Source: Paenibacillus sp. JNUCC32
Lineage (GTDB): Bacteria > Bacillota > Bacilli > Paenibacillales > Paenibacillaceae
Assembly: GCF_014863545.1 (NCBI RefSeq)
Contig: NZ_CP062260.1
Coordinates: 1,860,001-1,924,000 of the forward strand
DNA: 64,000 nt
Reading direction: 5' to 3'
The translations under genes were made by a program, and so were the position numbers. The notes under the pieces were generated by a model. It made no database searches, was not told the DNA's origin, and saw only the letters and a program-made list of their open reading frames with translations. Positions 1,120 to 21,205 of the stretch are shown here, piece by piece; the stretch's first letter is position 1; every line of letters begins with the position of its first letter.

Positions 1120-2601
1120 TTATGGGTTGTTAGCCATCGATTGACTATTCTTAGCGTAACGAGCATAGACGATATAATAGCAAGCCACATGCACGAAATT
1201 GACGAGCGACCATACAACGAGCCAGATGATCGGTGACGATAGGGTAGTCCAAAGACCGGACCATGGCAGCACGCGCCCTCCGCCGATAAACGTCAGCAAT
1301 GGGGGGAGAGACAAGAGGATGAGGACCGGAATCAGCCTAATGACCGATATGAGAATGAACATGCCGATCGTAAGGCGTTTTTTCTTCCGACGAATACGAA
1401 TAGAAGCATAGCCGCCCCATACAAGCGTTGCGAGAATCAACGCCATCATGATCATAGACATGTTTCGATCGTTAAGAAATGAGATGTTGGGCTGTTCTCC
1501 CCTCATCATAGCCGCGACCCCATCGATGATTCCCGAGTAATTCACAAATGCGTTCAATCCTGAATTAAACATCACCGCGATCCCCATTTGCTCGTCCAAA
1601 AAAACCGTTTCTTCCGACTTGTACGTCCAGAAAATGCCGCTGTGGGAGATCGTTCGGCCTCCCGATGGATCATGGTCTGCGAGCCAACCCATGCCGTACG
1701 GCGAAGCTTCTCCGGCTGAATGAAATTGCTTCATCAACGCCGGGGGAAGAAGGTCGCCGCTATATTGGGCAATCATCCACCTGGACATGTCTTCCGCGGT
1801 TGAAACGATCCCTGCGGGACCGTCAATAAACCACAGCGGCTCTGAGCGATTCACGGAGCGGCCCAGAATCGAGTAATGACCCGGCGGGATCGCTTCATTC
1901 CCATTGATTTGATGCGTCGTGCTGACGCTGTACGTATGGTTCATACCCAGGGGTTTAAAAATATGACGATTCAGGTAATCCGAAAACCGCTCTCCACTGA
2001 TGCTTTCCACGAGGTTCGCCAACAGCACGTAATTGGGATTGTGGTAGCTGTAAGTTGTTCCAGGTTTATGGGCGAGTTCAACCTCATTTAATAACCGGTT
2101 CGCCTCGTGCAGTGCTTGGAATTGCGGAGTCCTCGTCATATCGGGATTGGAGCCATCCGTCAGGCCGCTGGTCTGATTCAATAAATGCCGGACCGTTATG
2201 TCATGAACTCGGGGATCCTGAGGAGTCAGTTTGGGAAAATAGGAAACGTAAGCCTCATCCAGATCAATCCGGCCTTTATCCACCAACTGCAGAACGGCTA
2301 ATGCGGTAAAGGACTTGCTAAGCGAAGCAATGGGTAGAGGGGTTTCGTCCGTTATGCTTTGGTTTTCACCAAACGTACCATAACCTTTGGCATAGAAGGT
2401 CTTATCGTTTAAGGAGATCGACAAGGACGCTCCTTCGATATGGTTGGCCTTCATGCTCCGGCTCATGTATTCGTCAATGTCCCGCCAAAGTTCCGTGCGG
2501 TCCCCGTCCTCCAATGCAGATACGGACTCCGCCATCACGGTCCAAGTTAGCAGCAGGCAGGTAATTACGGTAAACATTCTTTGTATTGTTTTCGGCATCA
2601 T
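1120..2601 (-). CDS. Membrane-anchored serine hydrolase, beta-lactamase / PBP4*-like family
   Basis: Exported class C beta-lactamase-fold serine hydrolase (penicillin-binding-protein-like or peptidase/esterase). Residues 1-30 form a signal peptide. SLSK at 93-96 supplies the nucleophile Ser93 and Lys96, YHN at 186-188 is the second catalytic motif, and an HSG triad in the SHSGIFW stretch takes the KTG position. The C-terminal ~110 residues contain three or four hydrophobic segments, giving the 493-residue protein a membrane anchor absent from plain beta-lactamases. The ATG at 2601 has AGGAG 5 bases upstream; a second ATG follows directly. It is the last gene of a minus-strand operon with a response regulator and kinase, which suggests envelope-stress or peptide-sensing control. 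The substrate is not predictable. Confidence 0.85.
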   Translation of the reverse strand: MMPKTIQRMFTVITCLLLTWTVMAESVSALEDGDRTELWRDIDEYMSRSMKANHIEGASLSISLNDKTFYAKGYGTFGENQSITDETPLPIASLSKSFTALAVLQLVDKGRIDLDEAYVSYFPKLTPQDPRVHDITVRHLLNQTSGLTDGSNPDMTRTPQFQALHEANRLLNEVELAHKPGTTYSYHNPNYVLLANLVESISGERFSDYLNRHIFKPLGMNHTYSVSTTHQINGNEAIPPGHYSILGRSVNRSEPLWFIDGPAGIVSTAEDMSRWMIAQYSGDLLPPALMKQFHSAGEASPYGMGWLADHDPSGGRTISHSGIFWTYKSEETVFLDEQMGIAVMFNSGLNAFVNYSGIIDGVAAMMRGEQPNISFLNDRNMSMIMMALILATLVWGGYASIRIRRKKKRLTIGMFILISVIRLIPVLILLSLPPLLTFIGGGRVLPWSGLWTTLSSPIIWLVVWSLVNFVHVACYYIVYARYAKNSQSMANNP

Positions 2602-2659
2602 AGCACTCCTTCAATCAAGATAAGGATATGCTATCGGATAATTTTCAACTATTTATCAA

Positions 2660-3742
2660 CTACGATCCAAAACTTGCGGTTACGCACCCGCCGCCTTGAG
2701 GTCCGTTTTCGACCTGCAAGCTCCCGCCATGTATTTCGCAAAGCACCTTGCAAACATACAGTCCTAGCCCACGATGTTCGGTTGCATCCCACATATCCCC
2801 GCGGTAAAAAGGAAGAGCAGCCTTGTTTAGGGCTTCGTTCGAGAAACCGGGTCCGTCGTCCGTGACGGCAATATCCATAGAGGCTTCCCGAATGATAAAA
2901 CGAGCGTTCACCTGACTGGTTGCGTAACGCGCCGCATTGGCTACCAGGTTCTCGAATACCTGCATGACGACATGGGCATCCAGGCTGATTTCAGAATCAG
3001 CGTTATCAATGGATGAGGCAAAGTTTATGCCGAATTGACTAGCTATTTGATTGGCACTGTCGTTCAACAAAGCCGTGAATGGGATGATATCCACGGGATC
3101 GCGATGCACCGGGGTATCCTCCAGTTTCTGAATCGAGCTCATGGCCTCCGCATAGTTCTCCAGGCGAACGATGTGAAGGTTCATGGTATGGATCAGGTCC
3201 AGAATCTTCTCTTCCGACAATTTCTTCTCGGGAACATAGGTGGCGAGAAACTCGGCGTACCCTTTCAGCACAGACAGCGGCGTCCTTAGATCATGGGCAA
3301 AAATTGCATTGAGCTGCTTGCGCTCCTCCACCGAACGCCAGAGTGCCTTTAAATTGATTTCCAATTGTGACCGCATGTTTTCAAATACGGCGATGAGCTC
3401 GCCCATCTCGTCCCGGCTGTCATAGGAGATGCTGAAGCCTAGATCGTTGGCCGAGATCTTCTTGGATGCTTGCATCAGAATCGTCAGCGGTCGTTTTAGC
3501 TTCCATCTGTAAAATAGAACGGCCATGGCGACAATTCCTGCGGCTACCGTCAACAGCACCGCCGCGACGAGGGAGGGCAGCAACCAATCGGCCTCTTCAA
3601 AACGCTCCCGCAGGATCTCCGCCCAGGCAAATTCCAAAGTGATCATGGCCAGTACAGCAAAAAGCGTAAGAATGCATAACAGGATGAACGATTGCAGCAA
3701 ATTAAGTCTTTCTAGCAGCAGCCTATTTACGAGTTTAGCCAT
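2660..3742 (-). CDS. Sensor histidine kinase (HAMP, HisKA, HATPase)
   Basis: Membrane kinase partner of the adjacent response regulator. Two hydrophobic segments near the N-terminus enclose only a short extracellular stretch, so it probably senses a signal at or in the membrane. A HAMP linker follows, then the phosphoacceptor FAHDLRTPLS (His150 from this start), an N-box ENLVANAARYA, VTDDGPGF and a GLGLYVCK glycine-rich box. I chose the ATG at 3742 because AGGA lies 5 bases upstream; a GTG at 3760 is in frame but sits within the region that would serve as its ribosome site. The gene overlaps the regulator's 3' end by 16 bases, so the two are translationally coupled. The short sensor loop resembles kinases of antimicrobial-peptide response systems, but no dedicated ABC transporter lies beside it. 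Confidence 0.88.
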   Translation of the reverse strand: MAKLVNRLLLERLNLLQSFILLCILTLFAVLAMITLEFAWAEILRERFEEADWLLPSLVAAVLLTVAAGIVAMAVLFYRWKLKRPLTILMQASKKISANDLGFSISYDSRDEMGELIAVFENMRSQLEINLKALWRSVEERKQLNAIFAHDLRTPLSVLKGYAEFLATYVPEKKLSEEKILDLIHTMNLHIVRLENYAEAMSSIQKLEDTPVHRDPVDIIPFTALLNDSANQIASQFGINFASSIDNADSEISLDAHVVMQVFENLVANAARYATSQVNARFIIREASMDIAVTDDGPGFSNEALNKAALPFYRGDMWDATEHRGLGLYVCKVLCEIHGGSLQVENGPQGGGCVTASFGS

Positions 3743-4401
3743 TTGTATCCTACTCCCCACACCGTCTCGATTCGATCGCTGCAGCCGTATTCCTTGAATT
3801 TGTTGCGAATTCGCCGAATATGCTCCGCGATGACGCTGCTATCGCCTTCTTCGTCCAGGCCCCAAATTTTCTCGTAAATGCGCTCCTTCTCGAATACCAT
3901 GCCGGGATTCATGGACAGTAATTCGATAATGTCGAACTCTTTTTTGGCCAGAGGTATTCGTTTATCCTGGAAATAGAGCTCCCGGGCCGTATAATTAATG
4001 ACCAAATCATGGTTAAACCTCACCGAGGCTTTGGTTAGGACTCGCTGTTCCCTGCGCAAATGCGCTTCTACTCTGGCGCCAAGCTCGCGAATACTGAAAG
4101 GTTTCAGGATATAGTCATCACCTCCTGCCCGAAAGCCGGCTATTTTATCGGCATCTTCGATTCGAGCGGTCAAAAATAAGATGGGGCACGAGACAAAGCC
4201 TCTAATTCTTTCGCATACTTCAAGGCCGTTCTCCTCAGGCATGTTGATATCGAGCAATACGAGATCGGGTCCTAGTTCCACTTTTCGCATAGCTTCCCGG
4301 CTGTCCTTGGCCGTCATGACAAAATATCCATTGATTTCAAAGTAATCGGTCAGCAGCTTTCGAAGATCCGCCTCATCGTCCACGATTAGTATCTTATGCA
4401 T
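3727..4401 (-). CDS. OmpR/PhoB-family response regulator
   Basis: Cytoplasmic transcription factor of 224 residues. The N-terminal receiver domain shows the acidic pair at Asp8-Asp9, the phosphorylation site Asp51 in LLDINMP, and the conserved Lys in ILKPFS. The C-terminal winged helix ends with the usual VWGVGYKW signature. It is the first gene of a three-gene minus-strand unit (regulator, kinase, serine hydrolase), so the hydrolase is the likely output. The ATG at 4401 has GGAG about 11 bases upstream. The divergent 4402-4639 region must hold its promoter; I could not define clear -35/-10 boxes there. Confidence 0.9.
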   Translation of the reverse strand: MHKILIVDDEADLRKLLTDYFEINGYFVMTAKDSREAMRKVELGPDLVLLDINMPEENGLEVCERIRGFVSCPILFLTARIEDADKIAGFRAGGDDYILKPFSIRELGARVEAHLRREQRVLTKASVRFNHDLVINYTARELYFQDKRIPLAKKEFDIIELLSMNPGMVFEKERIYEKIWGLDEEGDSSVIAEHIRRIRNKFKEYGCSDRIETVWGVGYKWLNS

Positions 4402-5542: not shown

Positions 5543-6566
<1,024 letters not shown>

Positions 6567-6629
6567 ATAGCAACAATATGGCCGTAGCGTTTCCATTTCT
6601 GACCACACGTAAGACCCACATTACAAAAA

Positions 6630-6672
6630 AACAGCGAGGACCGCTCGAAGTGAGTGGACTCGTTGTTTTTTT
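6630..6672 (+). terminator. Rho-independent terminator after paiA
   Basis: Stem AACAGCGAG / CTCGTTGTT (one G-T pair) with a 20-base loop, followed by a run of seven T. Confidence 0.8.
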
Positions 6673-6834: not shown

Positions 6835-7773
6835 ATGGGGATGCGCGACAGGAGTCAGCAGCATGGGAGACTTAAATTAACAGTGAAGGGATGGATCAAG
6901 ATAATCATGAATAAATGGCTCCGCAAGGATGCTTCGGCGGCCATATTCTTTCTCGTGCCAAGCGGTATCGGATTTGCACTCTTTTACCTTATTCCATTTG
7001 CCATGGGTGTGTACTATTCCTTTATGAGCCAATCGGTAGACGGCCATTTTGCGGGTCTCGATAATTACGTGGAGCTGTTTGGGAGTGCTTCCTTCCGCAA
7101 GGCGGCATCCAACACGTTTTTCTTCAGCGCGGTCAGTGTTCCGCTTATGGTCATGCTGTCGCTCGGGTTAGCGATCCTGCTCCATAAAAATACATATTTT
7201 CAAAAATGGCTTCGGACTGCTTACGTTATGCCGCTTGTTGTGCCCGTCGCCTCCATTATCATGATCTGGCAGATGCTATTTGACTGGAACGGCTCCCTGA
7301 ACGCATGGCTGAACAGCTTTGGATATGGACGCGTGGACTGGATGAAGACGGAATCGGCACGTTTGGTCGTGATCATGGTGTATCTATGGAAGAACATCGG
7401 TTACAACGTCATTTTATTCTTGGCCGGGCTGCAGCAAATTCCGAAGGATTACTACGAAACGGCCCGGATTGAAGGGGCTGGCCGCGTGAGGCAATTCCGA
7501 AGCGTTACGCTGGTCTATCTGACTTCTTCCATGTTCTTTGTTGTGATTATGTCCATTATCAACTCATTCAAAGTGTTCCGGGAAACGTATCTCATCGCAG
7601 GTGACTATCCCCACGACAGCATTTATATGATGCAGCACTATATGAATAATATGTTCATTTCACTCGACATTCAGAAGCTGACCGCAGCGGCATCCTTGAT
7701 GTTTGCCTGTATTCTGCTAATCGTCCTGGTGCTGTTTGCTATTGAGCGCCGACATCGGCAGTACATGGAATAG
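6835..7773 (+). CDS. Carbohydrate-type ABC importer permease 1 (MalF/UgpA-like)
   Basis: Integral membrane subunit with six hydrophobic segments and the cytoplasmic EAA loop (ETARIEGAGRVRQF, near residue 215) that contacts the ATPase. The loop is slightly divergent: the usual proline after the T-L strand is replaced (VTLVYL). The first 24 residues are hydrophilic and the start is uncertain: the ATG at 6835 has no good ribosome site, a GTG at 6883 follows GGGAGA, and an ATG at 6907 gives 288 residues, the usual family length. It heads a five-gene run whose other members are a second permease, an RND-type adaptor, a solute-binding lipoprotein and a large secreted protein. No ATP-binding subunit is encoded nearby, as is common when a shared MsmX-type ATPase serves several importers. 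Confidence 0.85.
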   Translation: MGMRDRSQQHGRLKLTVKGWIKIIMNKWLRKDASAAIFFLVPSGIGFALFYLIPFAMGVYYSFMSQSVDGHFAGLDNYVELFGSASFRKAASNTFFFSAVSVPLMVMLSLGLAILLHKNTYFQKWLRTAYVMPLVVPVASIIMIWQMLFDWNGSLNAWLNSFGYGRVDWMKTESARLVVIMVYLWKNIGYNVILFLAGLQQIPKDYYETARIEGAGRVRQFRSVTLVYLTSSMFFVVIMSIINSFKVFRETYLIAGDYPHDSIYMMQHYMNNMFISLDIQKLTAAASLMFACILLIVLVLFAIERRHRQYME

Positions 7774-7791
7774 GAGGTGGAGCGAAGCTTC

Positions 7792-8670
7792 GTGCGAATC
7801 GTCCATATATTGAAAAAAAGTGTATTAACATTCGTCTTGGGTGTTATCGCCCTGATCTTACTATCACCAATTGTGATTACATTCACAAATTCATTAATGA
7901 CAGAACTGGAGATTCAGATCAATTACGGTCTCATCGGTCAAATGAATGAAGTTATTCCAGGTAAAGACGGCTCTTTTGCAAACCTGAAATTAATTCCCGA
8001 CAAGGTGTCTTTTGCACAGTATGGGAAGGTGTTCATCGACAACCCGAAGTATCTGACGATGTTCTGGAACTCCGTGTTCATGGTGGTGCCGATCATTGTG
8101 GGTCAGACGATCGTGGCAGCACTGGCTGCTTATGCATTCTCCAAGTTGAAATTCCGCGGCCGGGATTCGATGTTTTTGGTATATGTCATGACGATGCTCA
8201 TGCCGTTCCAAGTCACGCTGGTTCCCAACTATATTATGGTCGATAAGCTTGGCATGCTGAATAGTACGGGCGCCATCATTGTTCCCGGCATTTTCGCAGC
8301 TTTCGGCGTGTTCATGCTCAGACAGTTCATGCTGGACATTCCCTATGCCTATATTGAAGCTGCCAAAATAGACGGTGCCGGACATTTGCGGATTTTTATG
8401 ACGATGATTGTCCCGATGATCAAGCCGGGGTTGGCCGCACTTGTGATCTTGCTGTTCGTTGATTATTGGAACATGGTGGAGCAGCCGCTTATTTTTTTGG
8501 ATGACCCCTTCAAGCAGCCGCTGTCTGTCTTTCTATCCAGGATTAATGATACTGACCGGGGGATTGCCTTTGCTGCATCCATGCTCTATATGGCCCCGAT
8601 GGTGATGTTATTTCTGTATGCGGAGTCGTATTTCATCGAGGGCATTCAATTGTCAGGTGTTAAGGGGTAA
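7792..8670 (+). CDS. Carbohydrate-type ABC importer permease 2 (MalG/UgpE-like)
   Basis: Second membrane subunit of the importer-like complex, 292 residues, six hydrophobic segments, with the EAA loop EAAKIDGAGHLRIFM followed by the conserved IVPMIKPG. Between the first membrane segment and the usual L-P-x-x-x-S-F-x-x-Y motif it has a loop about 25 residues longer than typical MalG-like proteins (around INYGLIGQMNEV and DGSFANL), which would face outward. I chose the GTG at 7792, with GGAG 9 bases upstream; the GTG at 7777 overlaps the AGGAGGTGG ribosome site itself. It begins 18 bases after permease 1 ends and is followed 36 bases later by the adaptor gene, so the three form one transcript. 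Confidence 0.88.
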   Translation: MRIVHILKKSVLTFVLGVIALILLSPIVITFTNSLMTELEIQINYGLIGQMNEVIPGKDGSFANLKLIPDKVSFAQYGKVFIDNPKYLTMFWNSVFMVVPIIVGQTIVAALAAYAFSKLKFRGRDSMFLVYVMTMLMPFQVTLVPNYIMVDKLGMLNSTGAIIVPGIFAAFGVFMLRQFMLDIPYAYIEAAKIDGAGHLRIFMTMIVPMIKPGLAALVILLFVDYWNMVEQPLIFLDDPFKQPLSVFLSRINDTDRGIAFAASMLYMAPMVMLFLYAESYFIEGIQLSGVKG

Positions 8671-8706
8671 CTTTTCAAGGCGGTTTTTAGGAGGAGAAGA
8701 AAGGAT

Positions 8707-9861
8707 ATGGAGCTTGGAAAAGGGTTAGCTGACCAAAGACGAAAGCGAATCCTTCAATTCGTGTTCATGGTTTTTATGGGAATGCTGCTGCTGTTTACCT
8801 TGTTCAGTAACACGCTGCAGTCGTTGACCTTGCCCAAGGTGACCACGGAACAGCCGAAACAGGGAGGCATTGCGCTATCGATCGAGGGAAGCGGAATACT
8901 TCAACCGATCGCCGAAGCTAAGCTATCCGGTTCAAACGACTGGAAGGTTCAGCAGATTCACGTAAAAGAAGGTGAACGTGTGAAGAAGGGACAGAAGCTT
9001 ATCGCTTATGACAACGTAGCGGCAAGACAAGAAATCGAACTTGAGGTAACGAATCTGGAAAAGCAAAGAATTGAGCAGCAAAATCTTCAGGATCAGTTTG
9101 TTCAATCTTCTATTGAAGAGGATGAACTTAAGCTGCGAAGCGCAAAACGCGAAATTGAAAAAGGGAAACTTGATATTGCTGCGCAGGAACGCAAGATCAA
9201 CGAGATGAAAGAACGACTGGCAAAAGATCAGATGCTTACCGCTCCCTTCGACGGTATTGTAACGAAGCTGAATGCGGTAGAAGGACTGGCATCTGCGGGC
9301 GAGCCGGATGTCATTGTCTCGAATAGCAGTCAAGGCTACAGGTTTGACGTTGGTGCTGATGCAAAACGCTTGTCCAGCATCGGGATATCCGTTGGTGAGC
9401 GGATCGAGGTAGAGGTGCAGACAGATGAAGAGCAGCAAGCCAGTGTCATTGAAGGCATCATTGAAGAAATCACCAATGCGGAGCCGATGATTGAGGGGGC
9501 AACCGAAGGAGCGGAGACGGTAACCGTCCCTCAAAAGAGGATTCGTATTAAACTCATCAACGCCAAGCTGAAGGGAGGTGAGCAGGCTCGGATTAACATC
9601 GAGAAAAACTCTCTCGATCAAGGGCTGCTTGTTTCTAATGAAGCTGTTCATCAGGACCGGGAAGGCATGTACGTTTTTGTAGTCGAGGAGCAGCCGGGTG
9701 CACTCGGTAATGTTTTTGTTGCCCGGAAAGTCAACATCAAGTTCAGCGAGCGGAATGACAAAGAAACGATGATCCAAACGGATAGCATCTATGAACAAGA
9801 TAAAATCATTCTGAAAAGCAGCGAGCCTCTGCAGGATGGCAACCGGGTTCGCTTGGAATAG
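8707..9861 (+). CDS. RND/HlyD-type membrane fusion (adaptor) protein
   Basis: A 384-residue single-pass membrane protein facing outward. One hydrophobic segment (residues ~18-40) is followed by a split lipoyl domain (GSGILQPI...VKEGERVKKGQKLIAYDN, then LTAPFDGIVTKLNAVEG), which encloses a coiled-coil hairpin of ~90 charged residues. Beta-barrel and membrane-proximal domains end in a VFVARKVNI...NRVRLE stretch. In Gram-positives such adaptors normally accompany MacB-type or ABC-2 exporters; here it sits between two MalFG-type permeases and their binding protein, with AGGAGG 11-16 bases upstream of its ATG. An adaptor inside an importer-like operon is unexpected and suggests that the complex delivers or senses something at the cell surface rather than simply taking up sugar. 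Confidence 0.88.
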   Translation: MELGKGLADQRRKRILQFVFMVFMGMLLLFTLFSNTLQSLTLPKVTTEQPKQGGIALSIEGSGILQPIAEAKLSGSNDWKVQQIHVKEGERVKKGQKLIAYDNVAARQEIELEVTNLEKQRIEQQNLQDQFVQSSIEEDELKLRSAKREIEKGKLDIAAQERKINEMKERLAKDQMLTAPFDGIVTKLNAVEGLASAGEPDVIVSNSSQGYRFDVGADAKRLSSIGISVGERIEVEVQTDEEQQASVIEGIIEEITNAEPMIEGATEGAETVTVPQKRIRIKLINAKLKGGEQARINIEKNSLDQGLLVSNEAVHQDREGMYVFVVEEQPGALGNVFVARKVNIKFSERNDKETMIQTDSIYEQDKIILKSSEPLQDGNRVRLE

Positions 9862-9905
9862 TGAGGCGGCATTGTAATCAGAACATATCAGGAGGAAATC
9901 ATACG

Positions 9906-11246
9906 ATGAAAAAATGGCTTTTACTTATTTCTATGGGGGCTTTAATCGCGAGTTTAACCGCTTGCGGCCCAGGAGAAGGCGGGAACGTAAATAAGCCCGC
10001 AACGAAAGAGGGGAAAACGTTGCTTACCCTGTCACTGACAGAGTCGAGTCCGTTCTATGAAACGCTCGAAAAAAAGTTCGAAGAAAAATACCCGGATATC
10101 GACCTGCAGATCCATGCATATAAAAGCATGGGTGAACTATGGGGACCTGGAGAATTCGAGAAGTATCGTACTGCAACGAATACAGCCATGTTATCGGGCA
10201 AAGGCATGGATATCATTGAAGTTGGCGGCTTGCCTGTTAAAGAATATGTGAGCAAAGGTTTCATGCTCAATATGAATGATTTGCTGGAGCAAGACCAGAC
10301 GCTCCATAAAGACGATTTGCAAATGAATATTGTGGACGGTCTGAAACTGAATGACGGGGTGTATACCATCCCTTTGGGATACTCCCTGAGAGTATTGGTT
10401 GGTAATGGGGACATGCTGGGCAACGCTAATGTGGCGTTCGATGATAAAACCTGGGATTGGAAGGAGTTCGAGAAGGTTTCAAAGGAAGTTATCCAAAAGG
10501 CAAAGGAGAGCGGTACCGATGAGATTTATGCATTAGCGTCCTACCCGCCGGAATACCTCTTTCAGGAGATGCTATATGAAAACTACGCTGCATTTGTTGA
10601 TACGACAGCCAAAAAGGCAACGTTCGATTCTCCGGAATTTGTGGATTTGCTTCAGCAAGCCATGAAAATGAATGATGACAAGATCATTACATCCGACGAG
10701 GCAAAGCCGGGCAATCAATTGTTCAGCTCTACCCCAATATTGTCGCCGCTTCAATTTATCGAAGGCCCTTATATGCTATTTGATCATCCCAAGATCATGC
10801 TGTTACCCCGAGCGGGAGAAACCGCGGGTCAAAAAGGCGCGAGGGTTTTTACATCATCCGGGTTCGCGATCCATGCCAAATCGCCAGCACAAGAAGAAGC
10901 TTGGAAGTTCATTTCCTTCCTATTGTCTGAAGAAGCACAATTACTGCAGGAAAGAGAAGGGTTCTCGATGCTTAAATCCGTGAATGAAAAGCTGATCAAT
11001 GACCTCCAGGAAAAGGTGGGGAGCGGCGATTATACACTTCCGAACGGGCAGCCGGCCAAAGTATCTGACGAACAATTCAACGTGTTTAAACAAATTGTTC
11101 AGTCCGCGGATCAATACGTCGATCTGGACAGTAAAGTGATATCGATTGCCGGTGAAGAGTCTATGGCGTACTTCAGCGGACAGAAAACGGCAGAAGAAGT
11201 GGCGAAGCTGATCCAGAACCGGGTCACCACCTATTTAAACGAATAG
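9906..11246 (+). CDS. Extracellular solute-binding lipoprotein (family 1)
   Basis: A 446-residue lipoprotein with a type II signal peptide (MKKWLLLISMGALIASLTAC, lipobox LTAC). The mature protein follows the family 1 binding-protein plan: an N-terminal lobe with FEEKYPDIDLQIH, a membrane-proximal hinge, and the PAQEEAWKFISFLLSEEAQ helix typical of maltose-type binding proteins. The ATG at 9906 has AGGAGG 9 bases upstream; earlier in-frame codons lack a ribosome site and would bury the signal peptide. It lies 45 bases after the adaptor gene and probably supplies ligand specificity to the permease pair. The ligand is not predictable. Confidence 0.88.
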   Translation: MKKWLLLISMGALIASLTACGPGEGGNVNKPATKEGKTLLTLSLTESSPFYETLEKKFEEKYPDIDLQIHAYKSMGELWGPGEFEKYRTATNTAMLSGKGMDIIEVGGLPVKEYVSKGFMLNMNDLLEQDQTLHKDDLQMNIVDGLKLNDGVYTIPLGYSLRVLVGNGDMLGNANVAFDDKTWDWKEFEKVSKEVIQKAKESGTDEIYALASYPPEYLFQEMLYENYAAFVDTTAKKATFDSPEFVDLLQQAMKMNDDKIITSDEAKPGNQLFSSTPILSPLQFIEGPYMLFDHPKIMLLPRAGETAGQKGARVFTSSGFAIHAKSPAQEEAWKFISFLLSEEAQLLQEREGFSMLKSVNEKLINDLQEKVGSGDYTLPNGQPAKVSDEQFNVFKQIVQSADQYVDLDSKVISIAGEESMAYFSGQKTAEEVAKLIQNRVTTYLNE

Positions 11247-11354
11247 GAGGATCATCCAGGAAACAGCCCACATTTGTGCGCTGCTCCCTATTTCACAGAA
11301 GAGAGACAACGGAGAATAGGCTTTTTGATTTTCTTTTTATACAGGAGGTACATT

Positions 11355-14273
11355 ATGCACGGACCAAAAAAGACATGCGCGGTCATCATGCTTGGTGCGC
11401 TGATGTTAAGTCATGGGTTTGCCCTTGATGCGTATGGGGCATCCGCAACAGGCTACTCTGTTTCTAAATCAGCAGCTGCAGTCGCGTCCAGCATGGCATT
11501 AGATAAACTGGGCTCTGTTCCATTGAAGCAGAACGTCAGCGTGAAGCTGACGGGGATGGATATTTTAACTCAGCCAGACGGGAATATTTTGGTCTATACG
11601 CTTCGTTATCGTAACAGCAGCGGCAGTAGAGTAGATCTTATCGATTATTTTTCCAAAGTTTCTATGCCTAGTGGGGCAACGGGAAAAGGCAAGAACGTTA
11701 CGAGTGACGCTATTAAACGAACGGTGCCGGCGAACAGCAGCCTCTCCGTGACGTATTATGTAAACGTTGGAAAATCAACTAAGGTCAACGGAGCCAAGGT
11801 TTCCCTGTACGGATGGAATTTTGACAGCGCGAACTATCAGAAAAAACTGGGGCAGATCACCGTTCCGGCCGATTACTCTTCGGTAGTTCCGACAGGAAAG
11901 AGCAAGAAGATCACGATGAATCATCTTCCGGTTACGGCCAAGGCGGATACCTTGCAGAGGTATACCATCAATGGAAAAGTATTTATAAAATTAGGACTCA
12001 GGCTCACGAATGGAGGGACAAAGGCATTAAGCGACCCCGGGTATAAGGCATATTTGAAGTCGGCCGGCGGCTCGGTATTTGAGCTCACCTCCGATTCAGC
12101 CAGCACCGGATACAAGCTGCAGCCTCAGGAGAGCAGCATCATCTTCTATTGGGCGGAGATCCCATCCACGATAAAGACGAACGGCATGACACTGCAGCTG
12201 GCGCAGGAGGACGAAGCATTGAAGATCAGTATTCCTGTGCAAACGTTCAAGCTTCCGGCGGCAGCGACGGATTTCGCCGTGGCCAAGGGCAAAAGCGCAA
12301 AGCTGATTATGAAACAACAGCCTGTTACGGTCAAGGCGGAAAGTGTGAAGCGAATGAAGCATAATGGAAAAGTGTATTTGAGAGTGGGGGTTCATTTTGC
12401 AAACGGAGGCAAGAAGGTGCTGAGTGATCCCGGATATACAGTACAACTGAAGTCGGCCGGCGGCTCGGTATTCGATCTTACGCCTGAGGATGTCACAGGG
12501 GGCAGCTTCAGGATCCAGCCAGGACAAAAACGAACGGTGTTTTATCTGGCAGAGGTTCCGTCCCAACTTAAAACAGACCAAATGACGATGCAATTCACGC
12601 AGAAAGACGAGGCTATGAACAAGCTGCTTCCGGTCAAAACCTTCAAACTTCCGGGTGTTACCGCTGATGTGCCTGCGGCGAATTATGCCATCCGAAACAT
12701 ATCGGTGAACCATCAAACGATAGAGACGCAGCTGAAACATGCTTCGGTATTTGCAGAGAACGATACCGGCAAATGGAACCTTCAATTCCGCGTTAAAAAT
12801 CTCGGTGATAAATCCTTGAAGCTGCCGGCTTATGAGCTTTCCATCCTCACGGATGAAGGCTACAGCATCCCGGTGAATACGAAGGCGCTTGACCATGTAA
12901 CGCTGAAGCCGCTGGAAGAGAAGCTTATCGACCTCAGTGCAGATGTGCCGTTGCACATGAAACAGAATCAATTGCAGCTGCAATTGACAGAGCCGGCTGT
13001 GGAGGGGAGGATCAGCTTCCCGGCTGCCCACTATAAAATTCCTTATGCCCCTGAGGGGAAAAGTCATCTGGGTGTAGAAAACATCGTCGAAAATGCTCAT
13101 GGAACATTCGGCGTCAAACTAAGCTCATATCAGCGTGTGCCGCTGGGAGATGTGGATCAAATTGTAGCCCAAATCAGCATTCGCAATACCCAATCGACGA
13201 CCGTATCGCTGCCTGAGTTTAAAGCTGCAGTTAAGGCAGGCATGCGCAATCTCAGCAATACGTCCCAAATGGTAGTGCCGAATGATCAAACAACTCTGGC
13301 GCCGAATGAAACCATGGAGCTGTATGTGCTTGCCAATGTACCGTATTCCTATTCATTCAATCAGCTCAGAGTCGATCTGCAGGAAACTTCAGGTGAGGAT
13401 GTTCACAAATTTCTGTCGCTGAATACCCATTCGCTCAACAATGTCATGAAACAGGTGGCTGCCGGCGAATCTTATCTTATCCATACGACAGGCAAGAAAG
13501 CGGAAGTCCGGGAACGCTTGACGACCGTATACCAAGACAACGGCTCCAATCTAATATATACGGAACTGGTGATGACGAGTCAGGAAACACGCCAATCCAA
13601 ACAGGCGCAGCTGGTTGCTTACTATAAAACACCGGACAACGAGTTTTTTGAGGCAAAGATTAGTCAATCATCCGAAAAGACAAGTGCCAATGGAAAGAAT
13701 CTTGTGACCATTTGGAGCAAGCTTCCGCAGAATGTGAATGCTTCCCAGCTTGTTTTATTTGTCGGGGAAGGCGTAGCGAACGGAAAAATGACAAATTTAG
13801 GGGAAGAATCAACGGGATCTATCAATACGGTGGGTTTAGCGCTTAACCCTAAAGTTACGCATCCGGCAACGAATCTGCAAAATGTGGAATTGTTTCCGTA
13901 CTTCCTCACCATCACGAGAGGAGAAGGTACGCTTAGCGCAGGGAAAGATATGCTCACTACCGTTATTCATTATAATCTCTCTAGGAATGGGGATTACGAG
14001 ACAGGTCCTTATGACCATAAACTCATCATGGAGCTGATTGACCCAACCGGGCAGTCGACAGAGAAGACGTTAACACTCGGTACCGATTTGACCATCGGCA
14101 ACAATCAATCCTACTCCATTAGCTTGAATAGCAACTTCAGTAAAATCGTGAGTGGAGGGGCGGTTCGAATCAATCTGTATGACGAGTTCCAAGGACGTAG
14201 AATGCTGCTAGGAAGTCAAAGCTATCCAATCATGTATGAAGAGAATCAGGCCAACAGGCCAGGTACCGATTAA
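11355..14273 (+). CDS. Large secreted multi-domain protein of tandem beta-sandwich modules
   Basis: A 972-residue exported protein with a signal peptide over residues 1-29 (cleavage near DAYGASA). I do not recognise a named family. The rest divides into about seven modules of ~115 residues that share a pattern: a strand pair with a polar start, a central L-x-NGG/NLG turn, an L-x-P(N/G)E/Q element, and a closing NQL/NGM-x-L-x-L strand. Modules 2 and 3 are clearly related (both contain LSDPGY and SAGGSVF) and share a near-identical 24-base DNA stretch at ~12057 and ~12449, so they arose by recent duplication. There is no LPxTG anchor or C-terminal membrane segment. The ATG at 11355 follows AGGAGG by 6 bases. 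Last gene of the permease-adaptor-binding protein run; a terminator follows. Likely a surface scaffold or partner of that complex. Confidence 0.75.
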   Translation: MHGPKKTCAVIMLGALMLSHGFALDAYGASATGYSVSKSAAAVASSMALDKLGSVPLKQNVSVKLTGMDILTQPDGNILVYTLRYRNSSGSRVDLIDYFSKVSMPSGATGKGKNVTSDAIKRTVPANSSLSVTYYVNVGKSTKVNGAKVSLYGWNFDSANYQKKLGQITVPADYSSVVPTGKSKKITMNHLPVTAKADTLQRYTINGKVFIKLGLRLTNGGTKALSDPGYKAYLKSAGGSVFELTSDSASTGYKLQPQESSIIFYWAEIPSTIKTNGMTLQLAQEDEALKISIPVQTFKLPAAATDFAVAKGKSAKLIMKQQPVTVKAESVKRMKHNGKVYLRVGVHFANGGKKVLSDPGYTVQLKSAGGSVFDLTPEDVTGGSFRIQPGQKRTVFYLAEVPSQLKTDQMTMQFTQKDEAMNKLLPVKTFKLPGVTADVPAANYAIRNISVNHQTIETQLKHASVFAENDTGKWNLQFRVKNLGDKSLKLPAYELSILTDEGYSIPVNTKALDHVTLKPLEEKLIDLSADVPLHMKQNQLQLQLTEPAVEGRISFPAAHYKIPYAPEGKSHLGVENIVENAHGTFGVKLSSYQRVPLGDVDQIVAQISIRNTQSTTVSLPEFKAAVKAGMRNLSNTSQMVVPNDQTTLAPNETMELYVLANVPYSYSFNQLRVDLQETSGEDVHKFLSLNTHSLNNVMKQVAAGESYLIHTTGKKAEVRERLTTVYQDNGSNLIYTELVMTSQETRQSKQAQLVAYYKTPDNEFFEAKISQSSEKTSANGKNLVTIWSKLPQNVNASQLVLFVGEGVANGKMTNLGEESTGSINTVGLALNPKVTHPATNLQNVELFPYFLTITRGEGTLSAGKDMLTTVIHYNLSRNGDYETGPYDHKLIMELIDPTGQSTEKTLTLGTDLTIGNNQSYSISLNSNFSKIVSGGAVRINLYDEFQGRRMLLGSQSYPIMYEENQANRPGTD

Positions 14274-14303: not shown

Positions 14304-14341
14304 AACACCCCTGAAGAATGAGGAGGTTCGGGGGTGTTTTT
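14304..14341 (+). terminator. Rho-independent terminator after the permease-adaptor operon
   Basis: Stem AACACCCC / GGGGTGTT, extendable by four pairs with one mismatch, followed by TTTTT. It separates the transport operon from the downstream two-component genes. Confidence 0.8.
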
Positions 14342-14536: not shown

Positions 14537-15232
14537 ATGAAGCGGATTACTATTCTCATTGCGGACGATGAGGCGGAAATAGCGGACCTGATCGAGCTGC
14601 ACCTGATAAAAGAAGGTTATGATGTCCTGAAAGCGGCTGACGGGCAGGAGGCGGTGCAAGCCGTTCGAGCGCATTCCGTCGATTTAGCGATATTGGACAT
14701 TATGATGCCGAAGCTGGACGGTTATGAAGTGATCCAGCACATTCGGGAACGCAATCATATGCCGATCATTTTTCTGAGCGCGAAAACGTCCGATCTTGAT
14801 AAAATTGCCGGGCTGGTGAGAGGCGCAGACGACTATATGACCAAGCCCTTTAACCCGATGGAGTTGATCGCTCGCGTGAATGCGCACCTTCGCCGTTATA
14901 TGCAGATGAACCAGCCGGCGACTTCCGGCAAACCCGCCCTGGAAGCAGGAGGAGTGGTCATATACCCCGATCAGCGAGTTGTTACCCTATACGGCGAAAC
15001 GATCGAGCTGACGCCTAAGGAATTTGACATTCTGTACTTATTGGCCAGTTACCCGAAGAAGGTGTTTAGTACGGAAAATATCTTTCAACACGTATGGGGC
15101 GAGGCCTACTTTGAAACAAGCAATACGGTTATGGTCCATATTCGAACATTGCGAAAGAAGATGTGCGATGATACGAACAAAAATAAGCTGATCAAAACGG
15201 TTTGGGGGGTAGGCTATACGTTCAATGGCTAA
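14537..15232 (+). CDS. OmpR/PhoB-family response regulator (VanR-like)
   Basis: A 231-residue regulator. Receiver domain with acidic DD-E at 10-12, phosphorylation site Asp54 in ILDIMMP, and Lys in MTKPFNP; then a winged helix with LTPKEFDILYLL, NTVMVHIRTLRKK and the closing VWGVGYTF. The ATG at 14537 was chosen because AAAGGATGG lies upstream and the protein begins directly with the first receiver strand. It overlaps the kinase gene by 8 bases. Its closest look is to the VanR/VanS class of pairs common in Bacillales. Position right after the permease-adaptor operon suggests it could control that operon. Confidence 0.9.
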   Translation: MKRITILIADDEAEIADLIELHLIKEGYDVLKAADGQEAVQAVRAHSVDLAILDIMMPKLDGYEVIQHIRERNHMPIIFLSAKTSDLDKIAGLVRGADDYMTKPFNPMELIARVNAHLRRYMQMNQPATSGKPALEAGGVVIYPDQRVVTLYGETIELTPKEFDILYLLASYPKKVFSTENIFQHVWGEAYFETSNTVMVHIRTLRKKMCDDTNKNKLIKTVWGVGYTFNG

Positions 15233-16313
15233 CTTGATACGAAGCTTCCGCTCCAAAATGATCGTGCTGTTCGGCTTCAGCATGATCATATCCGGCATCA
15301 TCATGTACGCACTATATAAAATCCTGCAATATTATTACCGAACACAGGTCAAATTCGAGGATCCGCTGGCTTATGTCCGCTTGTTCATAAGAACGGTCGG
15401 GGATATTAATTTTTTTCTGATATTTTTTATCCCGTTGGCGGTTTTGTTTTTCTTCCTGCTTACGAAGCCTTATGTGGCATATTTTCGTGAAATTTCTGCG
15501 GGGATTCGTCATCTCGCCAGCGGCGATTTCGACAAGCGGGTTTCGGTTTCGTCCCGGGACGAGTTCGGTGATATCGCGGCGGATATTAATCTGACGGGAG
15601 AGATGCTGAAGCAAGCGGTGGCGAGAGGAGATTTTGCTGAGAGCAGCAAAGATCAGCTGATATTGAATTTGGCTCATGATTTGCGAACGCCGCTCACTTC
15701 CGTCATCGGTTATTTGGATTTCATTCTTAGGGACGAATTATTGACCAAAGAACAGGTACGGCATTACACGGGCATTGCTTTCGCGAAGTCTAAGCGCCTG
15801 GAGAGGCTGATAGACGAATTGTTCGAAATCACTAGAATGAATTACGGTATGCTGCCTGTCGATAAACAGCCGATCAATTTAAGCGAGCTGCTGACACAGT
15901 TAAGTGAAGAATTGCTTCCGGCTCTTGAGAAAAATAAACTGGAAGCTCGATTGCACGTTACGCCTAATCTGATCATTTCGGGAGATGGCGACTTGCTGGC
16001 ACGCGTATTTGAAAATTTAATGACCAATGCGATACGGTACGGCAGCGACGGCCAGTTTGTAGATATCCGCGCTTTCCTTGAAGCAGACGAAACGGTGGTC
16101 CAGGTAATCAATTATGGGGATCGCATCCATCCGAACGAGCTGCCGCATCTATTCGACATGTTTTATACCGGCGATGCGTCCCGGGTTCATCGGGAGGGCA
16201 GCACAGGCCTCGGTTTATTTATATCGAAAAATATCATGATGCAGCATAATGGCACGATCACGGCCGACAGCAGCTTGCTTCGTACAGTTTTTGAAGTAAG
16301 GCTGCCGCGATGA
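15225..16313 (+). CDS. Sensor histidine kinase (VanS-like)
   Basis: A 362-residue membrane kinase. Two hydrophobic segments (~12-34 and ~60-80) flank a short ~25-residue extracellular loop; HAMP follows (ISAGIRHLASGDFDKRVSV). The phosphoacceptor is His151 in LAHDLRTPLTSVIGY, the N-box is ENLMTNAIRYG, and a GLGLFISKNI box ends the ATPase domain. It overlaps the response-regulator gene by 8 bases, so the pair is translationally coupled. The small sensor loop again points to detection within or at the membrane, perhaps through contact with a transporter such as the one encoded upstream. Confidence 0.9.
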   Translation: MANLIRSFRSKMIVLFGFSMIISGIIMYALYKILQYYYRTQVKFEDPLAYVRLFIRTVGDINFFLIFFIPLAVLFFFLLTKPYVAYFREISAGIRHLASGDFDKRVSVSSRDEFGDIAADINLTGEMLKQAVARGDFAESSKDQLILNLAHDLRTPLTSVIGYLDFILRDELLTKEQVRHYTGIAFAKSKRLERLIDELFEITRMNYGMLPVDKQPINLSELLTQLSEELLPALEKNKLEARLHVTPNLIISGDGDLLARVFENLMTNAIRYGSDGQFVDIRAFLEADETVVQVINYGDRIHPNELPHLFDMFYTGDASRVHREGSTGLGLFISKNIMMQHNGTITADSSLLRTVFEVRLPR

Positions 16314-16373: not shown

Positions 16374-17048
16374 TTGCGGAAATATGTTTTGGTATGGTTA
16401 TGGTTCGGTTTGTTAGCCGTTATCGGTCTGGTGGCTTATGGCGCAAGCTCCTCGATCGACTTCCTGACATCCGGAAAATTTGTGATCAATGGCATATCAG
16501 CAAGACTGCCCGTCATTAACTACAACGGAAACGTCTACGTTCCTCTTCGCCTTGTAGGGGAAGAAATGCATGCTGAAGTTCATTACGATGAGGAGAAGGA
16601 ATTAATCACGATCAAACAGCAAAGCTTAGCATTCGATGAACAGGTAGAGGCACCCGTTCCATCCATTGCTTATGAGAACACATACAAGGATGGTAGCGTT
16701 TGGATGCAGGAGATTCCGCTGCTACAGGGAAGCTCTTGCTGGAATGGATGCCTGGAAGTAAAAGACTCTGTAGGGCAATGGGTAACCGAAGCCCGGTATC
16801 CGCCGGTCAGGGTGAAGCCGGACTCTAATCTTGTAATAACCTATCCGGCTGGATTGGAGCCTGACAGATTGACGGTATTTAACGTCATGGATACGGGCAA
16901 TGAAACCGAGCAGTTTGTTGACATGATGGTGGTGAATCGGCGCTTACAGCTGCCAACGGAACCGGGAGTTTATACGATTTTAGTGAATTCGGATTGGAAG
17001 GCAGGATTCACCTCGTATGCTTTTGTTGTACATATTACTGACGGCTAG
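16374..17048 (+). CDS. Membrane-anchored protein with copper-amine-oxidase-N-like domain
   Basis: A 224-residue protein with an N-terminal hydrophobic segment (residues 4-24) acting as signal or anchor. Residues ~30-80 form the short repeat domain known as copper amine oxidase N-terminal-like (FVINGISARLPVI...YVPLRLVGEEMHAEVHYDEEKELITI), common in Paenibacillus cell-surface proteins and thought to bind the wall; no oxidase is implied. The remaining ~140 residues carry a Cys pair (SSCWNGCLEV) and an immunoglobulin-like strand pattern ending in GVYTILVNSDWKAG. The start is a TTG at 16374 behind AAGGAG with 12-base spacing. It follows the kinase by 60 bases and is probably co-transcribed, making it a candidate output or accessory sensor. 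Confidence 0.7.
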   Translation: MRKYVLVWLWFGLLAVIGLVAYGASSSIDFLTSGKFVINGISARLPVINYNGNVYVPLRLVGEEMHAEVHYDEEKELITIKQQSLAFDEQVEAPVPSIAYENTYKDGSVWMQEIPLLQGSSCWNGCLEVKDSVGQWVTEARYPPVRVKPDSNLVITYPAGLEPDRLTVFNVMDTGNETEQFVDMMVVNRRLQLPTEPGVYTILVNSDWKAGFTSYAFVVHITDG

Positions 17049-18562: not shown

Positions 18563-19270
18563 ATGTTATTGTCTTCCATGCGCGACGTTATGTTTGGATA
18601 CGGGGATCAAGCTGTCGTTGAGAATTTGTCGCTCGACATTCATGGCGGACAATTCATCGGTATATCCGGTCCAAATGGCGCCGCAAAATCAACTTTGCTG
18701 AAATTGATGCTTGGTTTGATAAAGCCCTGGAGCGGGTCCATCGTTTTCAAGCGAGTATTGGAGGACGGATCCAGGATATCTGTTGGATATGTTCCGCAGC
18801 AAGTGGCCTCGTTCAACGCTGGCTTTCCCAGTAAAGTGATTGAGCTTGTACGATCGGGCCGCTACGGACGACTTGGATTGTTCAAGCGTTTCACATCCGC
18901 AGATCATGAGATCGTTGAGCGAAGCCTGAAGGAAGTGGGGATGTGGGAATATCGTTATCGGAGGATCGGCGAGTTATCGGGAGGGCAGAAGCAGCGAATT
19001 TGCGTTGCCAGAGCGTTGGCCCAGGAGCCGCAGGTGTTGATTCTAGACGAGCCTACGACAGGGATGGATGTGTCGAGTCGTACGGATCTGTACCGACTAT
19101 TAAACGATTATGTCAAGGACAAAGGCAGCACGGTCATTATGGTCACCCATTCGCTTGATGAAATCGGTCCATATATGGACCAGGTCGTCCAATTGGAGCG
19201 AAAGGAGAATGAGGGATGGCGATGCTCGGTTACGAATTTATGCAGCGCGCGTTTTGGGCAGGAGGCCTGA
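18563..19270 (+). CDS. znuC: Zinc ABC importer ATP-binding protein
   Basis: A 235-residue ABC ATPase that drives zinc uptake through ZnuB. Features are Walker A GPNGAAKST, Q-loop YVPQQ, signature LSGGQKQR, Walker B VLILDEPT and H-loop VTHS. The Walker A residue before Lys is Ala rather than the usual Gly; as I recall, zinc-type ABC ATPases often carry Ala or Ser there, so this is probably not inactivating. The ATG at 18563 has AAGGAAGGAAGAG upstream. The 3' end overlaps znuB by 55 bases, which is long and suggests the C-terminal tail of ~18 residues is dispensable. Confidence 0.9.
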   Translation: MLLSSMRDVMFGYGDQAVVENLSLDIHGGQFIGISGPNGAAKSTLLKLMLGLIKPWSGSIVFKRVLEDGSRISVGYVPQQVASFNAGFPSKVIELVRSGRYGRLGLFKRFTSADHEIVERSLKEVGMWEYRYRRIGELSGGQKQRICVARALAQEPQVLILDEPTTGMDVSSRTDLYRLLNDYVKDKGSTVIMVTHSLDEIGPYMDQVVQLERKENEGWRCSVTNLCSARFGQEA

Positions 19271-20082
19271 TCGGCGTGATCGGTCCCGTTCTGGGCGTGT
19301 TTTTAATGCTCCGGCGCCAGGTTCTCATGGCGGACACACTCTCTCATGTATCCTTGGCGGGAGTCGCATTGGGTTCTTTCTTGAAACTGAATCCCGCACT
19401 CAGCGGTTTTGCAATGGCTATGATCGGGGCACTTGTGATTGAACAGCTTAGAAGAGTGTATCGTACATACACCGAGGTTCCGGTTGCCATTATTATGACC
19501 TCTGGGCTTGCTCTATCGGTGGTCCTGATGAGCTTGAATCAAAATCTGAGCAAGAGCTTCAGCTCCTATTTGTTCGGATCGATTGTTGCGGTTAGCGATA
19601 CGCAGCTTCGGCTTATTGCGGTGGTAGCAGCAGTGGGAATGATCTTTTTTGTTGGACTGCGCCGGCCGCTTTATAACTTTGCTTTTGATGAGGAGACCGC
19701 TGCGGCATCCGGTATGCGTGTCTCTCTCCTGTCTTTTTTATTCGCCGTGTTTACGGGAATGACGGTTGCCGCCGCCATGCCGGTAGTCGGCGTGCTGTTG
19801 GTTTCGGCGTTAATTGTGCTGCCGGCCTCGATCGCACTGCGGATGGCAACAGGTTTTTTAGCAGCCATGGGGATCGCCGTCGTTGTTGGGTTGAGTGGTG
19901 TTTTTTCGGGCCTTGCAGCTTCATACTATCTCAATACGCCGCCAGGAGGTACCATTGCCCTGATTCTATTAGGATTTCTAATCATGGCCGTAATCTTTCA
20001 AAAATTACTTCGGTTACAAAATCGAAGGTCGATACAAAAAATAAATAGAAATAGGAGTCATAAGAATTATGAAGAGATTTAA
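19216..20082 (+). CDS. znuB: Zinc ABC importer permease
   Basis: A 288-residue membrane protein of the ABC-3 family with eight or nine hydrophobic segments. The family motif region ADTLSHVSLAGVALG appears near residue 37, and LFGSIVAVSD and VSALIVLPASIALRMA are further conserved blocks. It forms the channel for zinc delivered by ZnuA, powered by ZnuC. The start at 19216 is supported by AAGGAG 12 bases upstream. It overlaps both neighbours (55 bases with znuC, 14 with znuA), so the three are translationally coupled. Confidence 0.92.
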   Translation: MAMLGYEFMQRAFWAGGLIGVIGPVLGVFLMLRRQVLMADTLSHVSLAGVALGSFLKLNPALSGFAMAMIGALVIEQLRRVYRTYTEVPVAIIMTSGLALSVVLMSLNQNLSKSFSSYLFGSIVAVSDTQLRLIAVVAAVGMIFFVGLRRPLYNFAFDEETAAASGMRVSLLSFLFAVFTGMTVAAAMPVVGVLLVSALIVLPASIALRMATGFLAAMGIAVVVGLSGVFSGLAASYYLNTPPGGTIALILLGFLIMAVIFQKLLRLQNRRSIQKINRNRSHKNYEEI

Positions 20083-21205
20083 GCGAGTATTAACCCTACT
20101 ATCCCTATCCGCAGTATTGGCTATTGCAGGCTGCGGCTCGGGAAAATCGACGGTTACTCATGAGGGAAACGTTTCCTCCGCCAATAACCAAGCGACAGAT
20201 GCCTCCACAACGGAAACTACAAAGCTGAAAGTTAAAACCAGCTTCTATCCCATGTATGAATTTACTAGACAGGTAGCGGGCGATCTGGCAGATGTGGAGA
20301 ATTTAATTCCTCCGGGTATTGAAGCGCATGATTGGGAGCCGACACCCCAGGACATGGCGGGAATTTCCGATGCCGATGTGCTGGTGTATAATGGCGCCGG
20401 CATGGAAGGCTGGGTGGATCAGGTTCTGGAGAGCATCCAAGGCACCGGGGTATCGGCAATTGAGGCCAGTAAGGGAATAGAGATCATGGAAGGTACCGGT
20501 CATTCTCATGATCATGGTGAAGAGGGCGATCACGGCCACGATGAGCATGCCCATGATCATGGTGAAGAGGGTGATCACGGCCACGATGAGCATGCCCATG
20601 ATCATGGTGAAGAGGGCGATCACAGCCATGATGAGCATGCCCATGATCATGAGGATGAGGGGCATCACCATGACCACGGTGGACTGGATCCGCATGTATG
20701 GCTCTCGCCGGCCATGGCTGTCAAACAAGTGCGCAACATCGAGGCAGGTTTGGCCAAAGCTGCTCCGGAACATCAAGAGGCATTCAAAGCAAACGCAGAT
20801 GCTTATGTTAGTAAACTGGAGGCATTGGACAAGGAGTTTCGAGACGGGCTGAAAAATACCAAACGAAAAGACTTCATTACGCAGCATGCTGCGTTCGGGT
20901 ATTTAGCCAGAGAATACGGTTTGACTCAAGTGCCGATTGCAGGCTTGTCTCCGGATCAAGAGCCCTCGGCTTCTCAAATGGCTGAAGTGATCGAATTTGC
21001 CAAGGAGCACAATGTAAAAACGATATTCTTTGAAACGCTTGTGTCGTCAAACGTTGCAGAGACGATAGCCTCTGAGATCGGGGCTTCGACTTCCGTCCTT
21101 AATCCGATCGAAGGGTTAACCGAGGAAGATATCGCGGATAACCATGATTACATTGCCATTATGCGACAAAATCTCGACGCTTTAGCACAGGCTTTGAATG
21201 AATAA
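20069..21205 (+). CDS. znuA: Zinc-binding lipoprotein ZnuA/AdcA-like
   Basis: A 378-residue zinc-binding lipoprotein. Type II signal peptide ends at LAIAGC. The cluster 9 binding-protein fold is marked by [18 protein letters not shown], the ligand His in [39 protein letters not shown] and [16 protein letters not shown]. Between the first and second ligand regions lies a long His/Asp/Glu/Gly-rich loop built of three near-identical 15-residue repeats, a zinc-sequestering element typical of ZnuA proteins but unusually regular here. The gene begins inside the end of znuB, with AGGAG 10 bases before the ATG. It is exported and anchored on the outer face of the membrane. Confidence 0.93.
20507..20641 (+). 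repeat. Three 45-bp tandem repeats encoding the ZnuA His-rich loop
   Basis: Units start at 20507, 20552 and 20597, each encoding [15 protein letters not shown] or a one-residue variant; a degenerate fourth unit begins at 20642 ([10 protein letters not shown]). The units differ at very few bases, including synonymous sites, so the array expanded recently and may vary in copy number between strains. Confidence 0.95.

Follow-up and report, generated by a model that had tools for sequence, protein, structure and literature searches.

A five-gene unit of Paenibacillus sp. JNUCC32 combines an ATP-binding cassette (ABC) transporter of the MalFG importer type with an efflux-type adaptor, and we consider it likely that these parts work as a single import machine of the cell envelope. 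The unit lies in the window analysed here, a stretch of 64,000 nucleotides corresponding to bases 1860001–1924000 of contig 1 of the 7.0 Mb host genome. It encodes, in this order on the plus strand, permease 1, permease 2, the adaptor, a binding lipoprotein and a large predicted secreted protein, called BIG in the following.

The pairing of the permeases with the adaptor is not accidental. Relatives were collected both as an adaptor-based sample of 44 loci, which were the best-scoring adaptor relatives, and as a permease-based sample consisting of the best 80 of 479 contigs by permease alignment and part of the matching genomes of the window's order and phylum. Scanning 202 loci in six frames with profiles, we obtained 154 genes of the permease 1 clade (score ≥280), of which 138 are distinct; counts are taken from such scans, length-based calling of open reading frames (ORFs) having hidden some genes under opposite-strand frames (for example in loci L066, L124, L228, L242 and L285). 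Permease 2, the adaptor and the binding protein were found within 9 kb and on the same strand in 138/138 distinct clade genes, and in 137/138 the adaptor lies at most 3.5 kb downstream of permease 1. When the loci were separated by the route through which they had been fetched, with duplicates removed, the adaptor was present in 106/106 (permease), 29/29 (adaptor) and 3/3 (the core domain discussed below); the clade permease, in turn, was found in all 44 loci fetched by the adaptor. As controls we used 27 other MalF-like genes. They lie in 22 of the 27 regions chosen as controls (20 in the window's genome, 7 outgroup loci), and neither an adaptor nor a core domain protein is encoded near any of them. 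Permease 1 and the adaptor show correlated pairwise distances (r = 0.922; 0 of 500 permutations as high), and a 78-row tree separates the 14 control rows from the clade with a Shimodaira–Hasegawa-like approximate likelihood ratio (SH-aLRT) support of 100. By hand count, permease matches with E <1e-60 occur in 97/246 genomes of the window's order and in 8/398 genomes sampled across the phylum, the window's own included. The idea of a hybrid envelope machine, put forward in an initial annotation of the window, is thus well supported (138/138 pairings, 0/27 controls). The same annotation treated the five proteins as a possible conserved block, which holds for the permeases, adaptor and binding protein (138/138) and fails for BIG (34/138). 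As far as the adaptor is concerned, neither of the patterns that it took as signs of an accidental grouping was encountered in the loci examined: every clade gene has its adaptor, and the 44 adaptor-fetched loci all carry the permease.

Permease 1 (positions 6907–7773, plus strand; longest ORF from 6835; PF00528, 62.9 bits) is closest in Pfam and NCBIfam to UgpA, GlcT and MalF, and is 57–90% identical to 32 members of the clade. Permease 2 (7777–8670, plus strand; PF00528, 39.9 bits; UgpE model, 2.3e-26) is closest to UgpE, GlcU and MalG. EAA coupling loops are retained in both (at about 7456–7482 and 8356–8382, respectively), as in permeases of the CUT1 family. In addition, permease 2 carries a clade-specific insert of 19 residues (7915–7971, plus strand), which the topology of MalG would place in the first extracellular loop. 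The insert columns hold at least 12 residues in 136/138 clade members and in 0/17 control permeases from the window's genome, the two exceptions being split or short reading frames. This insert is a candidate docking site for the adaptor.

The adaptor (8707–9861, plus strand) is a membrane fusion protein (MFP) of the MexA/MacA type, matching PF13437 at 28.9 bits and the RND_mfp model TIGR01730 at 89.6 bits, slightly below its cut-off of 94.9. The structural model, with a mean predicted local distance difference test (pLDDT) value of 85.7, shows an N-terminal helix (residues 5–40), predicted to be a transmembrane anchor, and a two-helix hairpin (residues 104–137 and 140–175, at about 9016–9231) with beta-rich parts on either side; the lipoyl, barrel, hairpin and membrane-proximal parts of the MFP fold can all be recognized. 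The model matches MexA, AcrA and MacA (best Foldseek match 6iok_J, E 8.2e-16; MacA 4dk0, E 3.1e-14); a search of the PDB with the sequence gave no match. Residues T31, N35, T36, P43, K44 and V45, beside the predicted membrane helix, are invariant or nearly so, as would be expected if this segment contacts a fixed partner. A hairpin motif by which adaptors contact outer-membrane channels was not found in the window's adaptor.

The binding protein (9906–11246, plus strand; PF01547, 62.6 bits) is a family 1 solute-binding lipoprotein with a lipobox read from the sequence. Its nearest solved relatives by sequence are CbpC, Lmo0181 and YesO, mostly oligosaccharide binders. No ATPase is encoded in the five-gene unit; the window's genome encodes two UgpC-type ATPases that score above the cut-off. 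Importers devoid of an ATPase of their own are served by the shared MsmX ATPase in Bacillus, where this is established (PMC7658222).

Further parts of the system were detected in deep relatives. Outside the window's class, in loci with the same phylum label, the genes for permeases 1 and 2 are followed by those for the adaptor, a ∼470-residue protein, the ATPase and the binding protein (L224–L227, L281 and L282), with the order of the last two swapped in L283. The ∼470-residue protein corresponds to the MacB periplasmic core domain without FtsX (PF12704, 67.9 bits in L224 and 61.3 bits in L226), and seven core domain proteins of deep relatives that were scanned gave no FtsX match. A stand-alone core domain of this type is present in 22/138 loci, most deep branches encoding one, and 9 of these 22 loci have an ATPase in the operon; the one in-operon ATPase that was domain-scanned, from L224, passes the UgpC cut-off (469 versus 432 bits) and has OB_MalK and TOBE_2 domains. 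In part of the window's order, permease 1, permease 2 and adaptor likewise come first, and after them core domain, binding protein, BIG, regulator and kinase (for example L239, L240, L288, L290 and L291), with core domain scores of 68.3 bits in L239 and 75.5 bits in L240. In the permease tree the core-domain rows are deepest, with L231 among them, a locus counted as lacking the domain despite a sub-threshold Pfam match (20.5 bits, cut-off 27); the other rows without a core domain, the window included, form one group (SH-aLRT 95). From this distribution we infer that the core domain was lost once and that the ATPase gene is absent from the operon in the window's order. Loci L229, L230 and L231 encode long adaptors (505–592 residues, with a longer middle part) and long binding proteins (771–871 residues, with an extra N-terminal part).

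BIG (11355–14273, plus strand; 972 residues, signal peptide identified by eye) had been described as a secreted protein of about seven modules, and the predicted structure (pLDDT 78.8) agrees, showing seven beta-sandwich modules by our own division of the model. Profile comparison relates modules 2–6 clearly to one another, module 1 more weakly and module 7 not detectably; modules 2 and 3 are 50% identical. BIG is 98% identical to a Paenibacillus lautus protein and matches no Pfam family. Its sequence had no match in the PDB, its model gave just multi-module beta-sandwich matches there with template modelling scores of ≤0.14 normalized by the model, which is uninformative, and a scan of genome contigs with BIG returned no relatives. 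Homologues (E up to 1e-15) were found in 211/246 genomes of the window's order. Since BIG lies within 9 kb of 34/138 clade permeases only, we rejected it as a defining part of the system, and its earlier casting as a core component of the machine is not supported. Nine BIG loci outside the system were inspected, eight chosen by us from the BIG homologue search plus a paralogue from the window's genome (L070). In six of the nine, BIG is directly beside an adaptor, an ABC ATPase and a MacB-type permease, the latter confirmed by Pfam in L304 and L070 and recognized by our own profiles only in L305, L306, L307 and L311. No MacAB-type cassette was detected in the 8.5 kb stretches around BIG in the other three (L308, L309 and L310); an association with RND systems, considered for L308 and L310, was ruled out, as the proteins concerned are by Pfam an S-adenosylmethionine synthetase and Big_5/SWM-repeat proteins. 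The paralogue (∼32% identity) heads a MacAB-type cassette on the minus strand at about 4736200–4742050 of contig 1 (L070, 8219–14046), composed of an ABC ATPase, an FtsX/core-domain permease and an adaptor. BIG is therefore found repeatedly, though not obligatorily, next to adaptor-dependent transporters, and suggests itself as a recurring extracellular partner of such transporters in these bacteria.

Beyond the terminator of the unit there is a two-component pair consisting of a VanR-F/M-like response regulator (14537–15232, plus strand; NF033120, 410.7 bits, cut-off 460) and a VanS-like histidine kinase (15225–16313, plus strand; NF033091, 357.2 bits, cut-off 400), followed by a protein with a Cu_amine_oxidN1 domain (16374–17048, plus strand; PF07833, 28.5 bits), which is a recurrent neighbour. 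Counting either strand, a regulator lies within 9 kb of 107/138 clade permeases (a close relative, at least 350 bits, in 56/138) and a kinase likewise within 9 kb of 107/138; both occur together in 78/105, 8/9, 16/20 and 0/4 loci of four successive score bands. On the same strand and within 9 kb of the 105 closest permeases we found a regulator at 77, a kinase at 80, VanY at 22, VanZ at 21, Amidase_3 at 11, a polysaccharide deacetylase at 9 and Cu_amine_oxidN1 at 11, compared with one regulator, one kinase, one VanY, one deacetylase and no VanZ, amidase or Cu_amine_oxidN1 protein at the 27 controls. At least one of VanY, VanZ, amidase and deacetylase is near 44/105 of these closest loci; twenty arbitrary regions of related genomes contained one VanZ and one regulator, and no VanY, amidase or deacetylase. 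One representative of each of these four families was confirmed by Pfam, and the VanY of locus L131, a relative, passes the VanY-A/F/M cut-off. Among the neighbours, the regulators give a clear signal, VanY and VanZ a moderate one, and amidase and deacetylase a weak one. In the relatives' loci, VanY and VanZ genes often adjoin the regulator/kinase pair. A second sublineage (L054, L058, L060, L156, L157, L160, L164 and L165) has an N-acetylmuramoyl-L-alanine amidase and a polysaccharide deacetylase by the transporter, in sets that vary, and at some of its loci a lipoprotein-like protein of about 250–340 residues without a Pfam match; this set presumably resembles the CwlD/PdaA/GerS set of the spore cortex. 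In a published phylogeny, vanRS is widespread among paenibacilli, frequently accompanied by accessory genes in species that are susceptible, and in certain other genera it lies upstream of ABC transporters (PMC11273654); the text consulted there does not characterize the present transporter.

Composition, gene order and conservation, together with the parts seen in deep relatives and the neighbouring genes, lead us to propose how the complex could work. The binding lipoprotein would capture an oligosaccharide and pass it to the two permeases, with uptake powered by a shared ATPase of the MsmX/UgpC type encoded elsewhere in the chromosome. A ring of the membrane-anchored adaptor may sit atop the permeases on their outer side, extending into the thick wall. 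Ancestrally, the docking partner of the adaptor would have been the MacB-type periplasmic core domain protein; with the loss of that protein in the window's lineage, contact between adaptor and permeases could have become direct, perhaps through the 19-residue loop of permease 2. BIG, where present, might lengthen the adaptor or hold it in the wall, and the VanRS-like pair probably tunes expression to the status of the wall. We take a glycan fragment released from peptidoglycan as the probable substrate, a glycan because of the binding protein's nearest solved relatives, and one of wall origin because of the neighbouring genes. More tentatively, and with somewhat less than even confidence, we suggest an adaptor-dependent importer that draws such fragments through a wall-spanning conduit, from which later lineages would have dropped the collar and the ATPase, some of them adding BIG. 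The corresponding notion of a MexA/MacA-type tube, with the ancestral MacB core domain as its docking collar, is a possibility of the same tentative order. The initial annotation had raised, as a hypothesis, an extracellular conduit or cargo platform that adaptor and BIG may form for the permease pair.

An importer with a built-in adaptor is favoured by the EAA loops, the binding protein, the MalK-type ATPase of a deep relative and the constancy of the adaptor. Several observations weigh against it. Adaptors of known function serve exporters (reviewed in PMC4446572). The window's unit itself has neither an ATPase nor a core domain protein, no recognizable core-domain-only protein was found in the window's genome, and of the two UgpC-type ATPases there, one lies beside a different sugar permease pair (L181). 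Moreover, the distance correlation of permease 1 and adaptor (r = 0.922) also contains shared species history. The link to peptidoglycan is moderate and almost restricted to the 105 closest loci. VanY, VanZ, amidase and deacetylase are all missing next to the operon in the window, the remaining 33 clade genes had one VanY and no VanZ, amidase, deacetylase or Cu_amine_oxidN1 protein nearby, and one-sided Fisher tests gave p-values of 0.025 for VanY, 0.005 for VanZ, 0.07 for amidase and 0.35 for deacetylase among loci that share ancestry.

These points leave room for other explanations. BceAB acts as a sensor for BceRS, and by analogy the transporter-like assembly could report wall or antibiotic status to the adjoining two-component system, with little net transport. 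That both regulator and kinase are near in the three upper score bands (78/105, 8/9 and 16/20), as opposed to at most 1/27 controls, fits such a role, and the counts over both strands slightly raised our estimate for it while slightly lowering that for the import machine. We nevertheless regard a sensor as unlikely, as none of the four deepest loci has both genes, the pairs belong to different subfamilies with a regulator close to the window's in just 56/138, and a regulatory pair is equally expected for any regulated importer. Alternatively, the permease pair might run outward, or the binding protein might strip a compound from membrane or wall and hand it to the adaptor. Such an exporter would explain the MexA/MacA fold, the MacB core domain of the deep relatives and the VanRS-like regulators; however, both the EAA loops and the binding protein of family 1 have been kept, nine deep relatives have an in-operon ATPase, of which the one scanned is of the MalK/UgpC type, and FtsX and an RND transporter are absent from the window's unit, making export rather improbable. 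It is also conceivable that the adaptor serves an exporter encoded elsewhere and shares with the importer nothing but transcription, considering that the genome holds other MacB-type permeases and that contact between adaptor and permeases is itself a prediction. The exceptionless pairing in both search directions, the congruent distances, the absence of an adaptor from all 27 control permeases and the extracellular insert peculiar to the clade's permease 2 render this very improbable indeed. Finally, a chance cluster confined to one genome is practically refuted by the 138/138 pairings against 0/27. We thus retain the import machine with its own adaptor as the likely reading.

The boundaries of the unit are marked by two hairpins: an intrinsic terminator at about 14304–14340 on the plus strand (RNA fold −19 kcal/mol, z −3.55, with a T-run after the stem), already reported at the end of the unit in the initial annotation, and an upstream terminator-like hairpin at 6625–6672 (RNA fold −26.4 kcal/mol, z −7.16), which we add. 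The five genes, their families and their common strand had been correctly assigned, as ORF list, Pfam/NCBIfam matches and models confirm, whereas gaps given as 18–110 bases become 3 bases between the permeases and then 36, 44 and 108 bases after revision of the starts; those at 6907 (permease 1), 9906 (binding protein) and 11355 (BIG) are likely, judged from relatives and the lipobox. Missing from that account were the two-component system, the Cu_amine_oxidN1 protein and the lack of an ATPase within the inventory, the MacB-core-domain partner and MalK-type ATPase of the deep relatives, and the peptidoglycan-related neighbours. A promoter scan gave 18 sites versus 20.2 expected and was uninformative. 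Elsewhere in the window, positions 5543–6566 contain ORFs of a MarR-family regulator and a GNAT acetyltransferase, overlapping by ∼50 bases as listed, and positions 1120–4401 of the minus strand encode a response regulator, a kinase and a serine hydrolase of the beta-lactamase fold (assigned by eye). A zinc-uptake-like ABC operon of ATPase, permease and binding protein, read from translation only, is located at 18563–21205; its binding protein has a repeated His/Asp/Glu-rich stretch.

The initial annotation knew of no described system of this composition, and our literature searches, in which most subscription papers were out of reach, likewise turned up nothing that describes a MalFG-type importer paired with an MFP adaptor. 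MexA/MacA-type adaptors are known as parts of exporters, and their occurrence in Gram-positive bacteria, according to a review, implies functions other than a bridge to an outer-membrane channel (PMC4446572). A conserved importer with an adaptor of its own makes such a role testable, and the deep form offers a clear case to study.

With CUT1/type I importers such as MalFGK2, UgpAEC and AraNPQ-MsmX, the system has in common a pair of PF00528 permeases bearing EAA loops, a binding lipoprotein of family 1 and, in the deep relative L224, a MalK/UgpC-type ATPase; an operon without an ATPase gene is also a trait of the MsmX-served importers of Bacillus (PMC7658222). It differs from CUT1 importers in the constant adaptor, the MacB core domain of deep relatives, the 19-residue insert of permease 2 and the optional BIG. 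Exporters of the MacAB/YknWXYZ type have the same adaptor fold, the PF12704 core domain is shared with the deep relatives, and BIG homologues stand beside such cassettes in 6/9 outside loci. In contrast to these exporters, the window's operon encodes neither a MacB permease, composed of FtsX and core domain, nor the ATPase belonging to it, and its transporter is of the MalFG type with a binding protein; nor does it encode an RND transporter, which distinguishes it from RND efflux systems. An importer joined to an envelope-spanning tube would also describe the Mce/Mla-type ABC importers, whose permease, extracellular tube and binding protein belong to different families. As regards glycopeptide resistance, ten Pfam-scanned proteins at 5.5–17 kb of the window included no ligase, VanH or VanX, no search having been aimed at these. 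Likeness to the resistance genes vanR, vanS, vanY and vanZ is nonetheless apparent in the window's pair, which scores near but below the VanR-F/M and VanS cut-offs, and the system thereby provides a native neighbourhood for the VanRS-, VanY- and VanZ-like genes of paenibacilli that bears on their work outside resistance.

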